Source: an uncultured Lachnospiraceae bacterium (GTDB lineage Bacteria > Bacillota > Clostridia > Lachnospirales > Lachnospiraceae). Taken from it: a stretch of DNA of 64,000 nucleotides. The stretch lies in contig CAMWXE010000013.1 in assembly GCA_947178145.1 (NCBI GenBank), positions 1-64,000 on the forward strand. The letters are read 5' to 3'. Below, in pieces: positions 1,551 to 9,691 of the stretch. The notes below the pieces were generated by a model, which was given only the letters and a program-made list of their open reading frames with translations, was not told where the DNA came from and did no database searches. Made by a program: the position numbers and the translations under genes. How positions within the stretch are numbered: the first letter of the stretch is position 1; every line of letters begins with the position of its first letter.

Positions 1551-1580
1551 TTTACATCATGTCACTTTATAGGGTATACT
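1551..1580 (+). promoter_or_regulatory. Predicted promoter of the four-gene operon
   Basis: TTTACA (1551-1556) and TATACT (1575-1580) are separated by 18 bp, a good vegetative sigma-factor promoter about 30 bp before the first ATG of the operon. It separates the operon from the integrase. Confidence 0.6.
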
Positions 1581-1612: not shown

Positions 1613-4600
1613 ATGAGTGACAACAGGGAGAAGCTGGTATATCTCGAATTTTCTTGCCAGAATATAGAACGAAATGCAGAGCCTGGGGAAATTGTCGAGG
1701 ACAGCTTTACCATATATGCCGCTGATGGGTACGCAGAGGGAAAGATCTATTCGTCTGATACAAGGATGAGATTGTATGAGATCGAATTTAGTGGTGTGGA
1801 GACGCAGATTGGATATTGCTTTGATGGGACTGCTGCCGAGGCGGGCAACTGTATCCGGGGGGAGTTTGTGATCATCAGCAACCGCGGCGAATATGCGATA
1901 CCTTATAAAATTAATGTACTAAAACCGTTGCTTCAAAGTTCTCTTGGAAACATCAAAAACTTGTTTCATTTTACAAACCTCGCGCAGACAAACTGGGAAG
2001 AGGCGGTCGCACTTTTCTATTCGCGAAATTTTGTTTCCGTCTTGCAGAAAAGTGACCGCAATGCTTATTTGTCCTATGTGGGGCAGGCACGCTATGAGGG
2101 AAATGAGCAGAATGTTGAGGAATTTTTGATTGAAGTCAGTAAAAAAACGCCTATTATATATCGTTTTGATATCGAAGGCTTTCTTCTTGAGGATATCCAG
2201 GACAGCATTGTGAAGAGTATTGTTATCACTAAGAGCGGTTGGGGCTACAGCTGCGTTCATGTATGGATTCAAGGAGATTTTATCAGTACAGACAGTCAGC
2301 TTTTGACCAATGAGGATTTTATTAATAACAAGTGTAATTTTAATATATATATCGATGCCTCAAAGCTGCATAATGGTGTAAACAGCGGGGCAGTTATCTT
2401 TTCTGACGCGTGTAACGATTACACGATCCCTTTTGATATTTTAATAGAGGAGGAGCCGCAGAGAAGGACGGACAACAGGAAACAAAAACAGGCGTTATGC
2501 AATATGGTGAGCGGTTATGCCGATATGAGGTTGAATCGACTGACAAAGAATCAGTGGATAAACCGGTTTGAGCGGGAGCTCGGTGTTCTTTTGGAGTTGG
2601 ATGAGGACAGTATACTCTTCAATCTGTATCGAGTGCAGCTGCTGATTACCAAGGAGCGTTTCAATGAGGCAAAATGGTATCTCGACATGTTAGAACAAAG
2701 ACTGTCAAAGGAGCCAACCGACATTTTCCAGAATTGCTATTACCTGTATCTTATGACACTGTTCAACTGTGCAGAGGATTATGTGAGAGATGTCAGCGAT
2801 GAGATTGAGACGATTTATGCCAACAATCCCACCGAATGGAGACTGGGCTGGTTTATCCTGCAGATCAATGAGGATCTTCAGCGCAGCAGGGAGCTTCGCT
2901 GGCAGTTTATGGAGGAAATGTTCAAAAACGGCTGCACGAGTCCGCTGTTGCTGTGCGAGGCAGTCTTGCTGCTGCAGGATCACCCGACTTTCCTGCTAAA
3001 ATTGGAGCGCTTTGAGGAAAGTGTTTTGTGGCATGGAGCCAGACGGCAGATGCTCAGGCCAGAGTTAATTGAGCAGCTACAGTACCTTGCTGCCCGCAAG
3101 AAGGAGTATTCAACCCTGCTTCTCAGGATACTGGGAGAGGTGTATCGCACTTATAAGTCGCCGCAGACAGTAGCATCGATCTGTCATGTTTTGATATTGG
3201 GCGAGCGCAAAGGCGTGGATTATTATCCCTGGTATGCGCTTGGTGTGGAGCATTCTGTGAGAGTGACAGGACTGTATGAGTATTATATGATGTCGCTTGA
3301 GCTTGACAAGTATGGAGATATCAAGGAAGGCATAGAAATTCCCAAGATGGTATTGATGTATTTTGCTTATCAGAGTACGCTCGACTATGAATTGAATGCT
3401 TTCTTATATGCATATATCATTAAGAACAGAGAGAAGTATCCAGATTTGGAGCAGAGTTATCGCATTGCGATTGAGCGATTTGTGGTGGACCAGATCAAGT
3501 TGGGGCATATCAACGAAAATCTTGCCTATTTGTACAGGAATATGCTGGCACCACAGATGGTCATGGATGAGACGGCGTATGCTTTCACGCCGCTGCTTTT
3601 CATGCATCGCATCTATGTGGATAACCCGAAAGTAATAAGTATTGTCGTTATCCATGAAAAGGTCAATGGAGAGAGCTCTTATCCAGTGACAAACTGTGTC
3701 TGTATGATACCGATTTATGGAAGTGAATATAAACTCTTTCTACAAGATGAGAATGGCAACCGCTTTACGAAAAGCATCCACTATGAGAATAAGCAGCTTA
3801 TGGAGCCCAAAAAGCAGCTGGGATATATCAGTGGTTATATGCAGGGGCGACTGCGGTTTGATATCTATCTGTGCGAAGTGGACAAGAATTACATAACGAT
3901 TTCAATGGACAATGTCAAACGTTTTAAGAACCTTGCAGAGTCACCGCAGGTAGTAGAGAGCTTTAAGAAGGAAATTCGCACAAAACTGTTGCGGTTTTAT
4001 TATGATAATGATATGATTGGCGAGCTCGACGCTTTCCTGGAGGATACGGAAGCAGATGAGATGGAGGCTTCTGAGCGCGCGGAATTTATCAAATTTCTGA
4101 TTTCGAGGGGAATGTTTGACAAGGCCTATTACTGGCTGCGCTCTTATGGCGTGACCGGCGTGGAGTCAAAGTCGGTGGCGAGACTTGTCAGCAAGCGCAT
4201 TGTCAACAGGGATTATGAGTATGATGAATTTCTTGTGAATGTGGCACACTACATTTACAAGAACATGAAATACGATGAAAATATCTTGCGTTATTTAATG
4301 ATCAATTATGAAGGAAAGGTTGCTGAACTCAGAAAACTATGGAAATCTGCTGTCGATTTGGAACTTGATGCGAAGCAGATTATGGAGCGGATTCTGAGGC
4401 AGACAGAATATACAGGTGTTACGATTCCGGACAGGGACAGCCTGCTGATTGCATATGTGCAGTGTGAGGAATATGACCGGGGGCTGGTGAATGGGATGCT
4501 TTTAAATATGTCCTATGAATACTTTGTCTATGAGGCGATTCTGTGTCCGGAGATTTTTGATATATTATATCAAAAATATGTGCATGGAGAGTTGACTGAC

Positions 4601-5254
4601 AGGGTATGTAAACTGGCTCTCTTAAAGTTTTGGGCAGAGAATATACAGAGTGGACTGGAAGTGCCTGGAGATATCGCGGGGCAGTTTATACAAGAGCTTT
4701 TGCGCGACGATGTATATTTTCCTTTTTATGTAAAACTTGTGGATATGCTGCCAGAACTGCACTATATTAAAAATTGTGTGTTTGTGGAATATCGGACACA
4801 GCCGCAGAGTCAGGTATATATACACTATACATTTGATGACAGCTCTTTTACTGGCAATCCAATGGAGCGTGCTGAGGAAAACCCGATAGAAGATATTAAT
4901 TACGAGTGTTATGAAATCAGGGAAATGAAGGAAATGTATGAGGGAATCCACGTGAGCATGTTCCAGCTTTTTCACGGGGAAACGATACAGTATTACATTA
5001 CAGAGAGCTGCCTGGAAAACAAAGAGACGCTGCAGGAACATGTGACGCAGAGTGGTACATTATATGGTAAATCAGAAGTAGACTTTGTCAGTACAGCATC
5101 GGGAATACAGCAGTACGATACAGAGGATCGATTTAATATATTAAATGGTATTATGCTGAGCATTAGTCTGCATGACGAGGTGACGGCACAACAGCTGACA
5201 GAAGACTACATCTATCAGGATTTCTGCGTAAGAGAGCTTTTTAAAGTGTTGTGA
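1613..5254 (+). CDS. Giant DUF5717-like protein, Ig-like plus alpha-solenoid
   Basis: This 1213-residue protein has no known function. I recall Pfam DUF5717 for this Lachnospiraceae family, not verified here. Residues about 1-110 and 185-285 look like beta-sandwich (Ig-like) domains; about 290-1000 is a helical repeat region like a TPR solenoid, and the C-terminus returns to beta structure with many Tyr and Glu. There is no signal peptide or membrane segment, so it is probably cytoplasmic and a scaffold. AAGGAAG precedes ATG 1613. It starts an operon with an actin-fold ATPase 31 bp downstream, then a TPR protein and a membrane coiled-coil protein. Confidence 0.8.
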   Translation: MSDNREKLVYLEFSCQNIERNAEPGEIVEDSFTIYAADGYAEGKIYSSDTRMRLYEIEFSGVETQIGYCFDGTAAEAGNCIRGEFVIISNRGEYAIPYKINVLKPLLQSSLGNIKNLFHFTNLAQTNWEEAVALFYSRNFVSVLQKSDRNAYLSYVGQARYEGNEQNVEEFLIEVSKKTPIIYRFDIEGFLLEDIQDSIVKSIVITKSGWGYSCVHVWIQGDFISTDSQLLTNEDFINNKCNFNIYIDASKLHNGVNSGAVIFSDACNDYTIPFDILIEEEPQRRTDNRKQKQALCNMVSGYADMRLNRLTKNQWINRFERELGVLLELDEDSILFNLYRVQLLITKERFNEAKWYLDMLEQRLSKEPTDIFQNCYYLYLMTLFNCAEDYVRDVSDEIETIYANNPTEWRLGWFILQINEDLQRSRELRWQFMEEMFKNGCTSPLLLCEAVLLLQDHPTFLLKLERFEESVLWHGARRQMLRPELIEQLQYLAARKKEYSTLLLRILGEVYRTYKSPQTVASICHVLILGERKGVDYYPWYALGVEHSVRVTGLYEYYMMSLELDKYGDIKEGIEIPKMVLMYFAYQSTLDYELNAFLYAYIIKNREKYPDLEQSYRIAIERFVVDQIKLGHINENLAYLYRNMLAPQMVMDETAYAFTPLLFMHRIYVDNPKVISIVVIHEKVNGESSYPVTNCVCMIPIYGSEYKLFLQDENGNRFTKSIHYENKQLMEPKKQLGYISGYMQGRLRFDIYLCEVDKNYITISMDNVKRFKNLAESPQVVESFKKEIRTKLLRFYYDNDMIGELDAFLEDTEADEMEASERAEFIKFLISRGMFDKAYYWLRSYGVTGVESKSVARLVSKRIVNRDYEYDEFLVNVAHYIYKNMKYDENILRYLMINYEGKVAELRKLWKSAVDLELDAKQIMERILRQTEYTGVTIPDRDSLLIAYVQCEEYDRGLVNGMLLNMSYEYFVYEAILCPEIFDILYQKYVHGELTDRVCKLALLKFWAENIQSGLEVPGDIAGQFIQELLRDDVYFPFYVKLVDMLPELHYIKNCVFVEYRTQPQSQVYIHYTFDDSSFTGNPMERAEENPIEDINYECYEIREMKEMYEGIHVSMFQLFHGETIQYYITESCLENKETLQEHVTQSGTLYGKSEVDFVSTASGIQQYDTEDRFNILNGIMLSISLHDEVTAQQLTEDYIYQDFCVRELFKVL

Positions 5255-5285
5255 CGGGAACTTTTCTGTAAGAGAGGTAAGAAGG

Positions 5286-6635
5286 ATGTTGATTGAAAGG
5301 GCATTGGATGAGATAACGAAAAAGAATAAAGTGGTAGTTGGCTTTGATCTGGAAAATGATTATTCACAGATCAGCTACTGTCGGCAAAATCAAAGTATGC
5401 CCGAAACAGTCAGTCTGGTGATGGGAGAGGAGCAGTATAATATTCCCACACTTTTGTGCAAAAAAAATGGTGTTGAGGGAGAAGCTGCATGGCTGATCGG
5501 CATAGAAGCTCTGAAAGTGGCAAAAGAAGGACAAGGAGTGCTTGTGGAGGACTTGGTGCTGCTGGCGAAAAACAATGGCAGTGTCAGGGTAGGCACGGAT
5601 TCTGCATCCAAGGACGAACTGTCTGCGGAGTATCTGTTGGAATTATTTATAAAAAAAGCACTTGCAATTTTATCTGCATATGTTGTAACTGAGGATATTG
5701 CGGCGGTGGCGTTCACTATGAAGAATATCGACACGGATGTTATGGAAAAGATCCGGAAGATATCAAAGCATATCGGACAGCGGAAAATGGAGGTTTATTT
5801 TCTGAGTCGTGAAGATTGTTTTTTTCAGTATATGATTCACCAGCCACAGGAAATGTGGATACATGATGTACTCTTGTATGACTATAGAAGTGATGGCATC
5901 AACAGCTACCTTCTTTCCATGAACAGAAAGACAAATCCAGTGGCGTGTTTTATAGATGCTGCAGAGTATCCGCAGATGAAGATACCAGATCTGTCAGATA
6001 AGAATGAGACTGCCAAAGCCGCATATTTCAAACAGCTTGATTCCGTACTGCTCGAGATTGTGCGGAAAAACTGTGATCAGAAAATAATTACATCTGTTTT
6101 CTTATTAGGAGAATCGTTCTCGAAGGATTGGTGTCGGGAATCTCTGAAATATATGTGCAGGGGAAGACGCGTGTTTCAGGGAAATAATCTTTTTAGCAAA
6201 GGCGCCTGTTATGGCGCACGCGAGCGTGTTTATCCCTCAACATTGTCCACGTCTTATGTATATCTGTCGGAGGACAAGCTTCGGGCCAATATTGGTATGA
6301 CTTGCGACAGAGGGCAGGTTGAAGTCTACTATCCGATTCTCGACGCGGGCACAAACTGGTATGATGCACAGAATACTTTCGACGTGATGCTTGTGAAGAA
6401 TAATGCAATTACGCTCAATATATCTCCGGTGGATGGAAGAAAGACACGAGTGGCGCGGATTTCTCTCGAGGGGCTGAAGGTGCGGGGCAATAAGACCAAT
6501 CGGGTGGAGCTTCGATTTTATATGGAAGATGCCAATGCAGTGCAGATTGAAATTAAGGATAAGGGGTTTGGGGAGTTTTTTCCGTCCACAGGTCAGATTT
6601 GGAAAGAATGTTTGCCGCTTGAGGTGATCACATAA
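5286..6635 (+). CDS. Hsp70/actin-fold ATPase-like protein (DUF5716-like)
   Basis: This 449-residue protein shows the landmarks of the Hsp70/actin ATPase fold. A phosphate-1-like loop is VVGFDLENDYSQ (about 16-27), a phosphate-2-like segment is LLYDYRSDG (about 195-203) and an adenosine-binding-like segment is VFLLGESF (about 270). The last 120 residues are beta-rich and resemble a substrate-binding domain. The usual GTTNS of the first loop is replaced by ENDYSQ, so nucleotide use may differ from DnaK. I recall this family as DUF5716, not verified. Its fixed position after the giant solenoid protein suggests the two act together. The true substrate is unknown. Confidence 0.75.
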   Translation: MLIERALDEITKKNKVVVGFDLENDYSQISYCRQNQSMPETVSLVMGEEQYNIPTLLCKKNGVEGEAAWLIGIEALKVAKEGQGVLVEDLVLLAKNNGSVRVGTDSASKDELSAEYLLELFIKKALAILSAYVVTEDIAAVAFTMKNIDTDVMEKIRKISKHIGQRKMEVYFLSREDCFFQYMIHQPQEMWIHDVLLYDYRSDGINSYLLSMNRKTNPVACFIDAAEYPQMKIPDLSDKNETAKAAYFKQLDSVLLEIVRKNCDQKIITSVFLLGESFSKDWCRESLKYMCRGRRVFQGNNLFSKGACYGARERVYPSTLSTSYVYLSEDKLRANIGMTCDRGQVEVYYPILDAGTNWYDAQNTFDVMLVKNNAITLNISPVDGRKTRVARISLEGLKVRGNKTNRVELRFYMEDANAVQIEIKDKGFGEFFPSTGQIWKECLPLEVIT

Positions 6636-6679
6636 TGTAAGAAGGAATTGCTTCTGATGATAAAATTGAGGTTATGTAA

Positions 6680-7513
6680 ATGAATAATGTTTGTCTATGT
6701 ATAGGAAATTATGCGAAAAATCCATTTTATTTAAAATTTTCCGACATTTCATTGTATTCTATAGAAGAGTTATGTTATTATTTTATGGAAAGGGTACATC
6801 TTTTAGATGACTCGATTGTCTCGGCAGAGCTTGTGAATTGGATTCGGCAGGAATGCGGGTTAGCAGAACTTGCGGACGAGCTGGATGTGTATGTCAGAAA
6901 GCATGTGTCAGTTGCTGCTTTTGTCTCAACGATCTTTGAGCGGACCGGAATGTATGACAACAGTACGGTTAAGCAGGTGGACCGCATTTTGAAAGAGCAG
7001 TCAAACCTTACGATAACAGAGAAATACAAAAAGAGAGCAGAATATTTGTACCAGCAGGGTAGATTTCGACAGGCACTTGTCATCTACAGAGAGCTTGCGG
7101 AGTATATTCCTTCCAGGGACAGTGCGGGAAAAGCATTGCTATATTATAATATGGCTTCTATTTATGCGATGGATTTTGCATTTAAGCAGGCGGCAGATTT
7201 ATACTATGAAGCTTACTTGCTTCACCCTGACAGGCAGACAAGATGTGCTTATATTCTCGCGAATAGAAAGGCGCTCACAGACTACGCATACGGTGCTTTC
7301 AAGAGGGAGAATCCGAATTGGGAGGAGGATTTTCTCAAAGTGGAACAAATGTGTGCGCAGGCGGATGAAAAATGGCTTGCTTCACGGGAGAGAAAACTGG
7401 TGACAGAGCTGGCAGAGCTCAAGGATAGTGGTCAGATGGAGGCGTACCGTCAGCAGTCGCAGACAGTGATCAGACAGCTCAAGAAGGATTACAAGCGTCA
7501 GACAAAGAATTAG
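6680..7513 (+). CDS. TPR-repeat protein of the Hsp70-fold operon
   Basis: This 277-residue protein is soluble and mostly helical. The N-terminal 100 residues are unassigned. About 115-185 hold two TPR-like hairpins (YLYQQGRFRQALVIYREL and a second around YYNMASIYAM), and the C-terminus is a charged helix ending in a Lys/Arg-rich tail. TPR units normally bind other proteins, so it may be the adaptor between the ATPase and the other members. It lies 44 bp after the ATPase gene and 34 bp before the membrane coiled-coil gene. No enzyme motif is visible. Confidence 0.75.
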   Translation: MNNVCLCIGNYAKNPFYLKFSDISLYSIEELCYYFMERVHLLDDSIVSAELVNWIRQECGLAELADELDVYVRKHVSVAAFVSTIFERTGMYDNSTVKQVDRILKEQSNLTITEKYKKRAEYLYQQGRFRQALVIYRELAEYIPSRDSAGKALLYYNMASIYAMDFAFKQAADLYYEAYLLHPDRQTRCAYILANRKALTDYAYGAFKRENPNWEEDFLKVEQMCAQADEKWLASRERKLVTELAELKDSGQMEAYRQQSQTVIRQLKKDYKRQTKN

Positions 7514-7547
7514 GGAGGCAGGTATTGTTGAAAGGGGTTATGAAAAT

Positions 7548-8732
7548 ATGGGATTATTCGGAAAGATAAAAGGTCTTTTTAACCGACAGACAGATGATGA
7601 GGAAAATGTATACAGACCTGATTGGGAGGAGAGCCTGAAACGTGACAATATTGACATGCATGACAAGCTGCAGCGTGAACATTACGTCAAGGCATGTCTG
7701 GAGCAGATGTCAGAGGCTTCCAAGGAATTGGATATTCTTGGAGGGGAGTACAATCTAGTGACTTCCTATCTGACAGATATGGAGGAGCTTGAGGCACAGA
7801 ACGAAGCGGTCAAAGAGCAGTTAAAAGCATACGCCACAAAGATTATTGAGTTGGAGAATGGCAGGGAGAAGTTGGACAAGAAACGCCGTATCATGAAGCC
7901 GGAAGACTATCTTCGCATGGAGCGCGTTGAGCAGTATATGCCAGAGGGATATCACAAATTAAAAGAAGCAGAAGATTACCAGGTGCTCGTGAAAAAGGAT
8001 ATGGGAAGGCTTGACGGTGAGCGCCACGCCTATTATTACAGAAAAAATGAGCTTCAGAATGCGTTGCAGAATGTGAAAGGAATTACAATTATGTGTGTCG
8101 CCTCGATGCTGTTTCTGATATTGATGCTCTCAGTGATCAGTGCCGCGTGGCAGCTTGACGTCACGCTTGGATATGCGATTGCCATATTGATTATGGCATC
8201 GACACTCGCCTTTGTGTTTGTCAAGTTTCACGAATGGCAGAGAGAGCTTGTGAAAGTTGAGAAGGGGATCAATAAGCTTGTTCTTTTGCATAATACAGTG
8301 AAAATACGCTATGTGAACAATACGAATCTGTTAGAGTATTTATATGTAAAGTACAATGTCAACAGCTCCAATGAGCTTAAGAAACTATGGGACAAGTATC
8401 TCGAGGAGAATATTCACCGTGAGCAGGAGAAGCAGATGGAGCAGGATATGGATTTCAATGAGGCGGCTCTGCTGAAACTTCTTCGCAGCTGTAATATTGC
8501 AGATCCCAATGTCTGGCTTCATCAGGCAGCGGCGCTGATTGACAATAAGGAGATGGTGGAGATCAGACATGATCTGATCATCAGACGACAAAAGCTCAGG
8601 AAGCAGATGGAGTACAATGCGAAAGCAGCCCAGGAGGCGCAGGACGAGGTCAAGGATATCGTTGAGAAATATCCTGAATATGCAGAGCGGGTACTGGATT
8701 TGGTATCTGATTATGAAAAGGCACTTGCATAG
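7548..8732 (+). CDS. Membrane-anchored coiled-coil protein
   Basis: This 394-residue protein has a long charged coiled coil (about 30-175). A hairpin of two membrane helices follows (about 179-201 and 207-228), then a second coiled coil to the end. With two membrane passes and positive charge before the first, both coiled coils should face the cytoplasm. No catalytic motif is seen. As last gene of the operon it could anchor the solenoid/ATPase/TPR proteins to the membrane; this is inference from gene order only. There is no recognisable terminator before the purC promoter region. Confidence 0.75.
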   Translation: MGLFGKIKGLFNRQTDDEENVYRPDWEESLKRDNIDMHDKLQREHYVKACLEQMSEASKELDILGGEYNLVTSYLTDMEELEAQNEAVKEQLKAYATKIIELENGREKLDKKRRIMKPEDYLRMERVEQYMPEGYHKLKEAEDYQVLVKKDMGRLDGERHAYYYRKNELQNALQNVKGITIMCVASMLFLILMLSVISAAWQLDVTLGYAIAILIMASTLAFVFVKFHEWQRELVKVEKGINKLVLLHNTVKIRYVNNTNLLEYLYVKYNVNSSNELKKLWDKYLEENIHREQEKQMEQDMDFNEAALLKLLRSCNIADPNVWLHQAAALIDNKEMVEIRHDLIIRRQKLRKQMEYNAKAAQEAQDEVKDIVEKYPEYAERVLDLVSDYEKALA

Positions 8733-8818: not shown

Positions 8819-9691
8819 ATGCAGAAATTTGCACCAGTTAAAGAGGGTAAGGTACGTGAGGTATATGACAATGGGGATAGTCTGATTATTGTGGCAACAG
8901 ATAGAATTTCCGCATTTGATGTGATCTTAAAGAACGAAATAACAAAGAAAGGCGCGATACTGACACAGATGTCAAAGTTCTGGTTTGATTTTACAAAAGA
9001 TGTTGTGCCAAATCACATGATTTCAGTGAATGTCAAAGACATGCCTGAATTTTTCCAGAATGACAGATTTAATGGCAGCAGTATGATGTGCCGCAAGCTC
9101 GAGATGCTTCCGATTGAGTGCATCGTGCGCGGCTATATCACAGGAAGCGGCTGGGCAAGCTATAAGGAAAACGGAACCGTGTGCGGCATCAGGCTTCCCG
9201 AGGGATTGAAAGAGTCAGAAAAGCTCCCTGAGCCCATCTACACACCGAGTACAAAGGCTGAGATCGGATTGCATGACGAGAATATTTCCTTTGAGCGGAG
9301 CATCGAAGTGCTTGAGGCAAAATTCCCTGGTAGAGGTGAGGAATATGCCACAAAGATCAAGGATGCCACGATTGCGCTCTATAAGAAGTGCGCGGCGTAT
9401 GCCCTGAGCAGGGGGATTATTATCGCGGATACCAAGTTTGAGTTTGGTCTTGACGGGAACGGAAATGTGGTGCTTGGCGATGAGATGCTCACGCCGGACA
9501 GCTCGCGGTTCTGGCCGTTGGAAGGATATGAGGCAGGAAAGGGACAACCATCTTTTGACAAGCAGTTTGTGAGAGACTGGCTCAGGGCAAATCCTGACAA
9601 TGATAATCTTCTGCCAGATGAGGTTGTCGCTAAGACGGTTGATAAGTATAAGGAAGCATTCGCGCTGCTCACAGGAAAAGAGTTTGCTTAG
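8819..9691 (+). CDS. purC: SAICAR synthetase
   Basis: Phosphoribosylaminoimidazole-succinocarboxamide synthase joins CAIR with aspartate using ATP, a late step of cytoplasmic IMP synthesis. The 290-residue protein begins with the typical KEGKVREVYDNGDSLIIVATDRISAFD and carries the family motif YITGSGWASY around 107-116 and TPSTKAE around 142-148. AGGAGG lies 6 bases before the ATG. It is somewhat longer than the 237-residue E. coli enzyme but fits the longer form. It leads purC-purF-purB. Confidence 0.96.
   Translation: MQKFAPVKEGKVREVYDNGDSLIIVATDRISAFDVILKNEITKKGAILTQMSKFWFDFTKDVVPNHMISVNVKDMPEFFQNDRFNGSSMMCRKLEMLPIECIVRGYITGSGWASYKENGTVCGIRLPEGLKESEKLPEPIYTPSTKAEIGLHDENISFERSIEVLEAKFPGRGEEYATKIKDATIALYKKCAAYALSRGIIIADTKFEFGLDGNGNVVLGDEMLTPDSSRFWPLEGYEAGKGQPSFDKQFVRDWLRANPDNDNLLPDEVVAKTVDKYKEAFALLTGKEFA

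Follow-up and report, generated by a model that had tools for sequence, protein, structure and literature searches.

What does a four-gene operon do when it is kept by nearly a whole bacterial family and its two main products belong to families listed in Pfam with function unknown (DUF5716_C, PF18980; DUF5717, PF18984 and PF18983)? The window, by which we mean the entire 64,000-nucleotide stretch of contig CAMWXE010000013.1 analysed here, comes from an uncultured bacterium whose family is probably Lachnospiraceae. At 1613–8732 it contains four (+)-strand open reading frames (ORFs), P1 to P4, arranged head to tail, each starting with ATG and separated by gaps of 31 bp (P1/P2), 44 bp (P2/P3) and 34 bp (P3/P4), just where an earlier reading of the letters alone (hereafter the sequence-only reading) had placed them. 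That reading saw in them a membrane-tethered chaperone or assembly machine built around an Hsp70-fold ATPase. We favour, with a probability of roughly 0.6, a conserved cytoplasmic complex of P1, P2 and P3 around a catalytically dead, lidless Hsp70 that would work without an ATPase cycle and that would descend from P2a, a degenerate Hsp70 encoded in a longer operon of sister families; a chaperone or assembly role for this complex is a reasonable supposition. The features of the locus are as follows (NBD, nucleotide-binding domain; SBD, substrate-binding domain).

1551..1580, + strand: promoter-like site TTTACA-18-TATACT, 10/12 consensus matches
1613..5254, + strand: P1, DUF5717_N plus DUF5717 protein (PF18984 + PF18983), 1213 residues
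5286..6635, + strand: P2, DUF5716 protein and probable pseudo-Hsp70, 449 residues; NBD (lobe IIB span reduced by more than half), then SBD-beta, no lid
5340..5366, + strand: degenerate phosphate-1 loop of P2, GFDLENDYS, residues 19–27 (DnaK counterpart GIDLGTTNS)
6255..6620, + strand: SBD-beta-like domain of P2, about residues 324–445, from hhalign, HMMER and VIA-align; boundaries approximate
6680..7513, + strand: P3, TPR-like protein, 277 residues; TPR matches below cut-off
7548..8732, + strand: P4, accessory, coiled coil plus predicted two-helix membrane hairpin (from hydrophobicity), 394 residues
8082..8222, + strand: hydrophobic segments of P4, residues 179–197 and 207–225, from a Kyte-Doolittle scan

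P2 belongs to the Hsp70s by descent and, judging from its model, by fold. PF18980 matches residues 141–443 (1.1e-101; 340.2 bits against a cut-off of 34.7), and hhalign, run between profiles built in this analysis, relates P2 to Hsp70 at 99.6% (E 3e-24); the match to DnaK from the PDB reached 6.7e-6, with a weak second HMMER domain that corresponds to the SBD-beta region. The AlphaFold model (pLDDT, the predicted local distance difference test score, 93.6) comprises an actin-like NBD followed by SBD-beta, with VIA-align rows running the full length, and its closest solved structures are Ssz1, DnaK and Hsp110, the Z score for Ssz1 exceeding that for DnaK (23.0) by less than 1. Both the actin-type fold and the altered phosphate-1 loop proposed by the sequence-only reading were thus recovered. 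P2 shares with Hsp70/DnaK (PF00012) its descent, fold and NBD plus SBD-beta architecture but has lost the catalytic residues and the SBD-alpha lid, the chain ending at residue 449 right after the beta domain. Moreover, the lobe IIB span has a median of 37 residues, compared to 84 in P2a.

It is in calling P2 an ATPase that the sequence-only reading very probably erred. The high-confidence fold could be taken to indicate that P2 still turns over ATP in a remodelled active site, and among 68 distinct P2 homologues (residues in E. coli numbering) Asp8 is kept in 61, the Asp194 position in 44 and the first glycine of the adenosine motif in all. However, Lys70, Glu171 and the second adenosine-motif glycine are kept in none of the 68 and Thr199 in only one. 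Lys70 is also absent from P2a (0/20), while the remaining Hsp70s of the longer operon (P2b, X and Z) keep every residue counted. A remodelled enzyme seems quite improbable on these counts. Residues particular to P2 (F278, W282, C291, F297 and W358) are nearly invariant.

P1 fills both PF18984 (6.8e-276, 918 bits) and PF18983 (3.9e-67, 227 bits; cut-off 25 bits), and membership of P2 in DUF5716 and of P1 in DUF5717 lies above the curated cut-offs. Weak matches to TPR-type PDB profiles (best 7e-4) suggest that P1 is probably a scaffold with TPR-like helical repeats, and they are the basis for calling it, as the sequence-only reading did, a solenoid. P3 is TPR-like, in line with its original description as a TPR protein, its matches being under the Pfam cut-off (best 8e-4), and in five genera it is fused in frame to P2. 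P4 has no Pfam family match of weight, and its two hydrophobic segments agree with the two-helix membrane coiled coil foreseen for it. NCBIfam gave zero matches among the four proteins. In the portions of the literature open to our search, DUF5716 together with DUF5717 returned only a passing mention of DUF5716 in work on another subject, and we found no publication on the operon in searches whose coverage mostly excluded subscription papers.

We then asked how widely the genes occur, sampling 150 genera of the window's family with one genome each, together with 14 control genomes. P1 (PF18983) and P2 (PF18980) were each found in 145 of the 150 genera and in none of the controls; the P3 profile matched in 147 (weakly in G020, G029 and G128), and the P4 profile in 67 (weakly in G013 and G063). 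Of the 144 genomes with both genes, 141 have P1 directly 5′ of P2 on the same contig and strand, as counted from manually copied match coordinates; the exceptions are G055, apparently a case of contig break, and G009 and G039, in which the two genes sit on separate contigs. The conserved gene order on which the sequence-only reading depended was therefore present, and the P1–P2 adjacency is conserved far beyond chance. P4 is 3′ of P2 in 64 of its 67 genomes. Three near-complete genomes without P1 (G029, G091, G098) are also without P2, and P3 is absent or weak in them. PF18980 occupies a single place per own-family genome except in G129, which is 6% contaminated, and G137, where a single gene is split over two frames and each half matches.

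Beyond the family, PF18980 occurs in 117 of 246 genomes sampled from the order, Lachnospirales, and in five of 398 of the phylum sample, all five from the window's own family. The P1 profile matched 75 of 146 genomes in the order sample and 14 of 291 in the class sample, ten strongly, all from the own family, and four as short marginal matches (E 5e-5 to 7e-4); several families of the order have neither P1 nor P2 (for example f141, f152 and f159, among the rows listed). Plasmids yielded zero P1 matches. P2 relatives at 23–29% identity also occur in five unannotated faecal records titled ‘Bacteriophage sp.’ (MT835719, MT835486, MT835988, MT837634 and MT837190), which are probably bacterial contigs.

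Some sister families (Defluviitalea, Petrocella) carry a longer operon related to P1–P4, with the order P1, Hsp70-X, a GrpE-like protein, P2a, P2b, an Hsp70-vWA fusion (Z) and a P3-related TPR protein. The full order on one strand was present in 11 of the 20 sister-family loci taken (L082–L101), namely L082, L083, L086–L088, L090, L092, L094–L096 and L098, with small extra ORFs interspersed in L090, L094 and L095 and split genes in L092; the other nine are end-cut or broken up (e.g. L085, L091, L093, L097). P1 in these families is usually split into P1a and P1b. For L071 a split P1a was considered and rejected, its 385-residue neighbour not being P1a. The sister operon is followed by a P4 relative in L084 and L092, and P2b of L084, missed by the ORF caller, was recovered as a 549-residue frame by genome search. 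In L086, Pfam assigns X to HSP70 (6.2e-78), the C-terminal end of the following protein to GrpE (7.1e-11), P2a to both DUF5716_C/PF18980 (2.2e-33) and HSP70/PF00012 (1.8e-14), P2b to HSP70 (1.6e-63) and DUF5716_C (1.3e-12), and Z to HSP70 (8.1e-92) and VWA (7.1e-10). By their residues, X, P2b and Z are intact Hsp70s and P2a is an already degenerate one. The sister operon, which encodes a GrpE-like protein beside these three intact Hsp70s, bears out the kinship to a chaperone machine suggested at the outset.

Further loci came from scanning named genomes with the vWA part of Z. Among the best 80 of 95 confirmed places, 73 were at least 57% identical; many of these are metagenome-assembled genomes (MAGs) labelled Defluviitaleaceae, and others are Petrocella sp. 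FN5 and Defluviitalea phaphyphila Alg1, whose vWA stretch is identical to that of L086. No record among the 80 is titled Lachnospiraceae. X, GrpE, P2a, P2b and Z occur together in 35 of the 73 loci, many of them cut by contig ends, and in 18 of the 28 loci of at least 19 kb. Both isolates have P1-X-GrpE-P2a-P2b-Z-P3, followed in Petrocella by P4. Among the 291 genomes of the class sample, the vWA profile had weaker matches in 16, all of other families, and none in the ten own-family genomes that were listed. Seven distant relatives among the best 80 of 95 places (L223–L229; 32–37% identity) come from other phyla, with contig titles naming Bacteroidota/Bacteroidetes, Ignavibacteria, Pseudomonadales, Desulfobacterales and Desulfoluna, and in four of them the ORFs have 459–597 residues. 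Our literature searches turned up no account of the sister-family operon, with its four Hsp70 copies, GrpE-like protein and Hsp70-vWA fusion.

Such a gene set calls to mind the GAP1-N2/DO-GTPase conflict systems, which combine in one locus two Hsp70s, GrpE and an FNIII/TPR protein, as far as the accessible text of their description goes (Kaur et al., 2020; PMC7159879). The sister operon likewise combines Hsp70s, a GrpE-like protein and a TPR protein, and PDC-M61B, a candidate defence family, matches two of its Hsp70s (3.9e-11 and 2e-7). Furthermore, the window's own genome has a conflict-type set elsewhere (L130, C35:22500–42000), with DO-GTPase matches, two Hsp70s and below-cut-off fn3 and GAP1-M matches, which resembles the systems in the accessible text of PMC7159879. 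The P1–P4 operon might then be a derivative of GTPase-centred conflict systems, serving immunity. Nevertheless, no GTPase or GAP1 match was found in the four window proteins or in ten scanned sister-operon proteins, the four window proteins have no PADLOC match, and P1 has no detectable kinship with the L130 FNIII protein, a relation that we considered and rejected (hhalign 0.3%). The operon differs, too, in being a near-universal core operon, almost always in single copy, rather than patchy, with no P1 in plasmids; we consider an immunity origin very improbable. Further Hsp70 loci of the same genome are L131 (C15), where by eye a small protein looks like GrpE and another like DnaJ, and L132 (C6), with a DnaJ-domain protein.

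Phylogeny places P2 within the longer operon's lineage. With P2b as outgroup, the 16 own-family P2 rows form one clade (99/97), which is sister to the P2a of L092 (100/99) and nested within P2a; a constraint holding all P2a together was rejected (p-AU 0.0008) in a tree from which six long-branch rows, L084 among them, were excluded, and a quicker tree with the window P2 and the long-branch rows placed L084 next outside. Since X, GrpE, P2b and Z are all still present in L092, although two of its genes are split, the most parsimonious account is one of loss in the window's family: the family would have kept the dead Hsp70 and lost three intact ones with their exchange factor. Set against five other Hsp70s from the own genome, X, Z and P2b fall together (100/98, with a long-branch warning), and they do so also with P2a added (SH-aLRT, a likelihood-ratio branch support, 97). 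These trees make a single origin for all four copies likely but unproven, as the outside Hsp70s were only those five, all from the own genome, and the long-branch warning applies. The suggested order of events is duplication, death of one copy and then loss of the live ones. L092 (also L221; MAG contig JAQSXR010000023), which by P2 is the genome closest to the window's family, has its Hsp70-vWA split into 198 + 494 residues, its P3 relative into 123 + 195 and a short GrpE-like protein of 279; either its operon is in decay or these are MAG errors.

An operon most simply derived by the loss of four genes, with a patchy P4, could itself be a decaying remnant of a larger machine with no present role. 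Yet for the only two P2 pairs whose dS is <0.4, the ratio of nonsynonymous to synonymous substitution rates (dN/dS) is 0.020 and 0.019, the remaining pairs having dS near saturation (dN/dS 0.03–0.17) or beyond, and such strong purifying selection argues against decay. With P1 and P2 each kept in so many genera and the residues particular to P2 nearly invariant as well, a functionless remnant is hardly credible.

If P2 is under selection without catalysis, it might act through other Hsp70s. Hsp110 and Sse1 are divergent Hsp70s that partner other Hsp70s, and P2 aligned with them over 389–400 residues (root-mean-square deviation 8.0–8.7). By analogy, P2 could be a co-chaperone of ordinary DnaK, an Hsp110- or Ssz1-like regulator acting via its Hsp70 cycle. 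Hsp110, however, retains the ATP site and lobe IIB, together with a long acidic insert and a lid, and lobe IIB, so largely lost from P2, is where exchange factors act. In addition, the four window proteins gave zero J-domain or GrpE matches, and no CIRCE element (controlling inverted repeat of chaperone expression) with three or fewer mismatches lies at the operon in a scan of the window, L062–L101 and L133. We regard a co-chaperone role as rather unlikely. The nearest likeness remains Ssz1 of the eukaryotic ribosome-associated complex (RAC), which, in the accessible text of PMC7083937, binds ATP without hydrolysing it, has no lid and accommodates a segment of Zuotin as a pseudo-substrate in its SBD-beta. 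P2, from sequence and model, is similarly a lidless Hsp70 fold without catalytic residues, but it is bacterial, has lost more than half of the lobe IIB span and nests in a bacterial operon lineage. For a Zuotin-like J-domain partner, no DnaJ match was found in the four window and ten sister-operon proteins, with no search made elsewhere in the genome; because no J-protein was found in the operon, we do not file it as a RAC member.

Co-occurrence, gene spacing and the in-frame P2–P3 fusions argue for our preferred reading, a cytoplasmic P1–P2–P3 complex formed by physical association. In it P2 would function independently of ATP in the cell, its SBD-beta possibly occupied, as in Ssz1, by a segment of P1 or P3 or by an extended, perhaps weakly bound, piece of a client, and P1 and P3 would serve as repeat scaffolds. 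Our best guess for the operon product, by this analogy, is an ATP-independent, Ssz1-like scaffold or holdase complex. Only tentatively would we go further and suppose that the dead member of a four-Hsp70 operon, having outlasted its three live partners, now serves with its scaffolds as a bacterial Ssz1 counterpart in its own right, with an ATP-independent core housekeeping role in nearly the whole family. P4, where present, may tie the complex to the membrane. Its two hydrophobic segments fit the membrane tether of the sequence-only reading, but that tether is not part of the core, since P4 matches strongly in 65 of 150 genera compared to 145 for each of P1 and P2. Two unnamed near-universal families would thereby gain an identity, as a pseudo-Hsp70 (DUF5716) and its scaffold (DUF5717), and the operon makes testable what a pseudo-Hsp70 does without Hsp70 partners.

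As to the surroundings of the operon, the promoter that had been assigned to it at 1551–1580 exists as a site, but is no more than plausible because the stretch is rich in such sites (37 observed on both strands versus 17.2 expected). Heat-shock control was considered and rejected, the lone CIRCE site lying in L069 at 14505, about 2.3 kb 5′ of P1 with other genes between. Upstream, a tyrosine integrase gene of low guanine-plus-cytosine content (337–1473; 0.359 versus 0.466 for the window) stops 139 bp 5′ of P1; near the contig end, it is perhaps the edge of an integrated element, and a sequence search found no second copy of the junction 1440–1640 in the own genome. The flanks, read as synteny, were rejected as a functional pathway, neighbours varying between loci: some have a protein of presumably valS size (cluster 3: eight own-family and two sister loci), others what we take to be purine-type genes (cluster 4: ten own-family loci). 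The purine region gave no useful result as a search query. In the window, the ORFs 3′ of the operon are presumably purC, purF and purB. The gene taken for purC (8819–9691) occurs near the operon in two weakly similar sizes (E ~1e-10), the longer, of ~290 residues, in the window and L069, and the other, of 235–250 residues, in L071–L073, L075 and L076.
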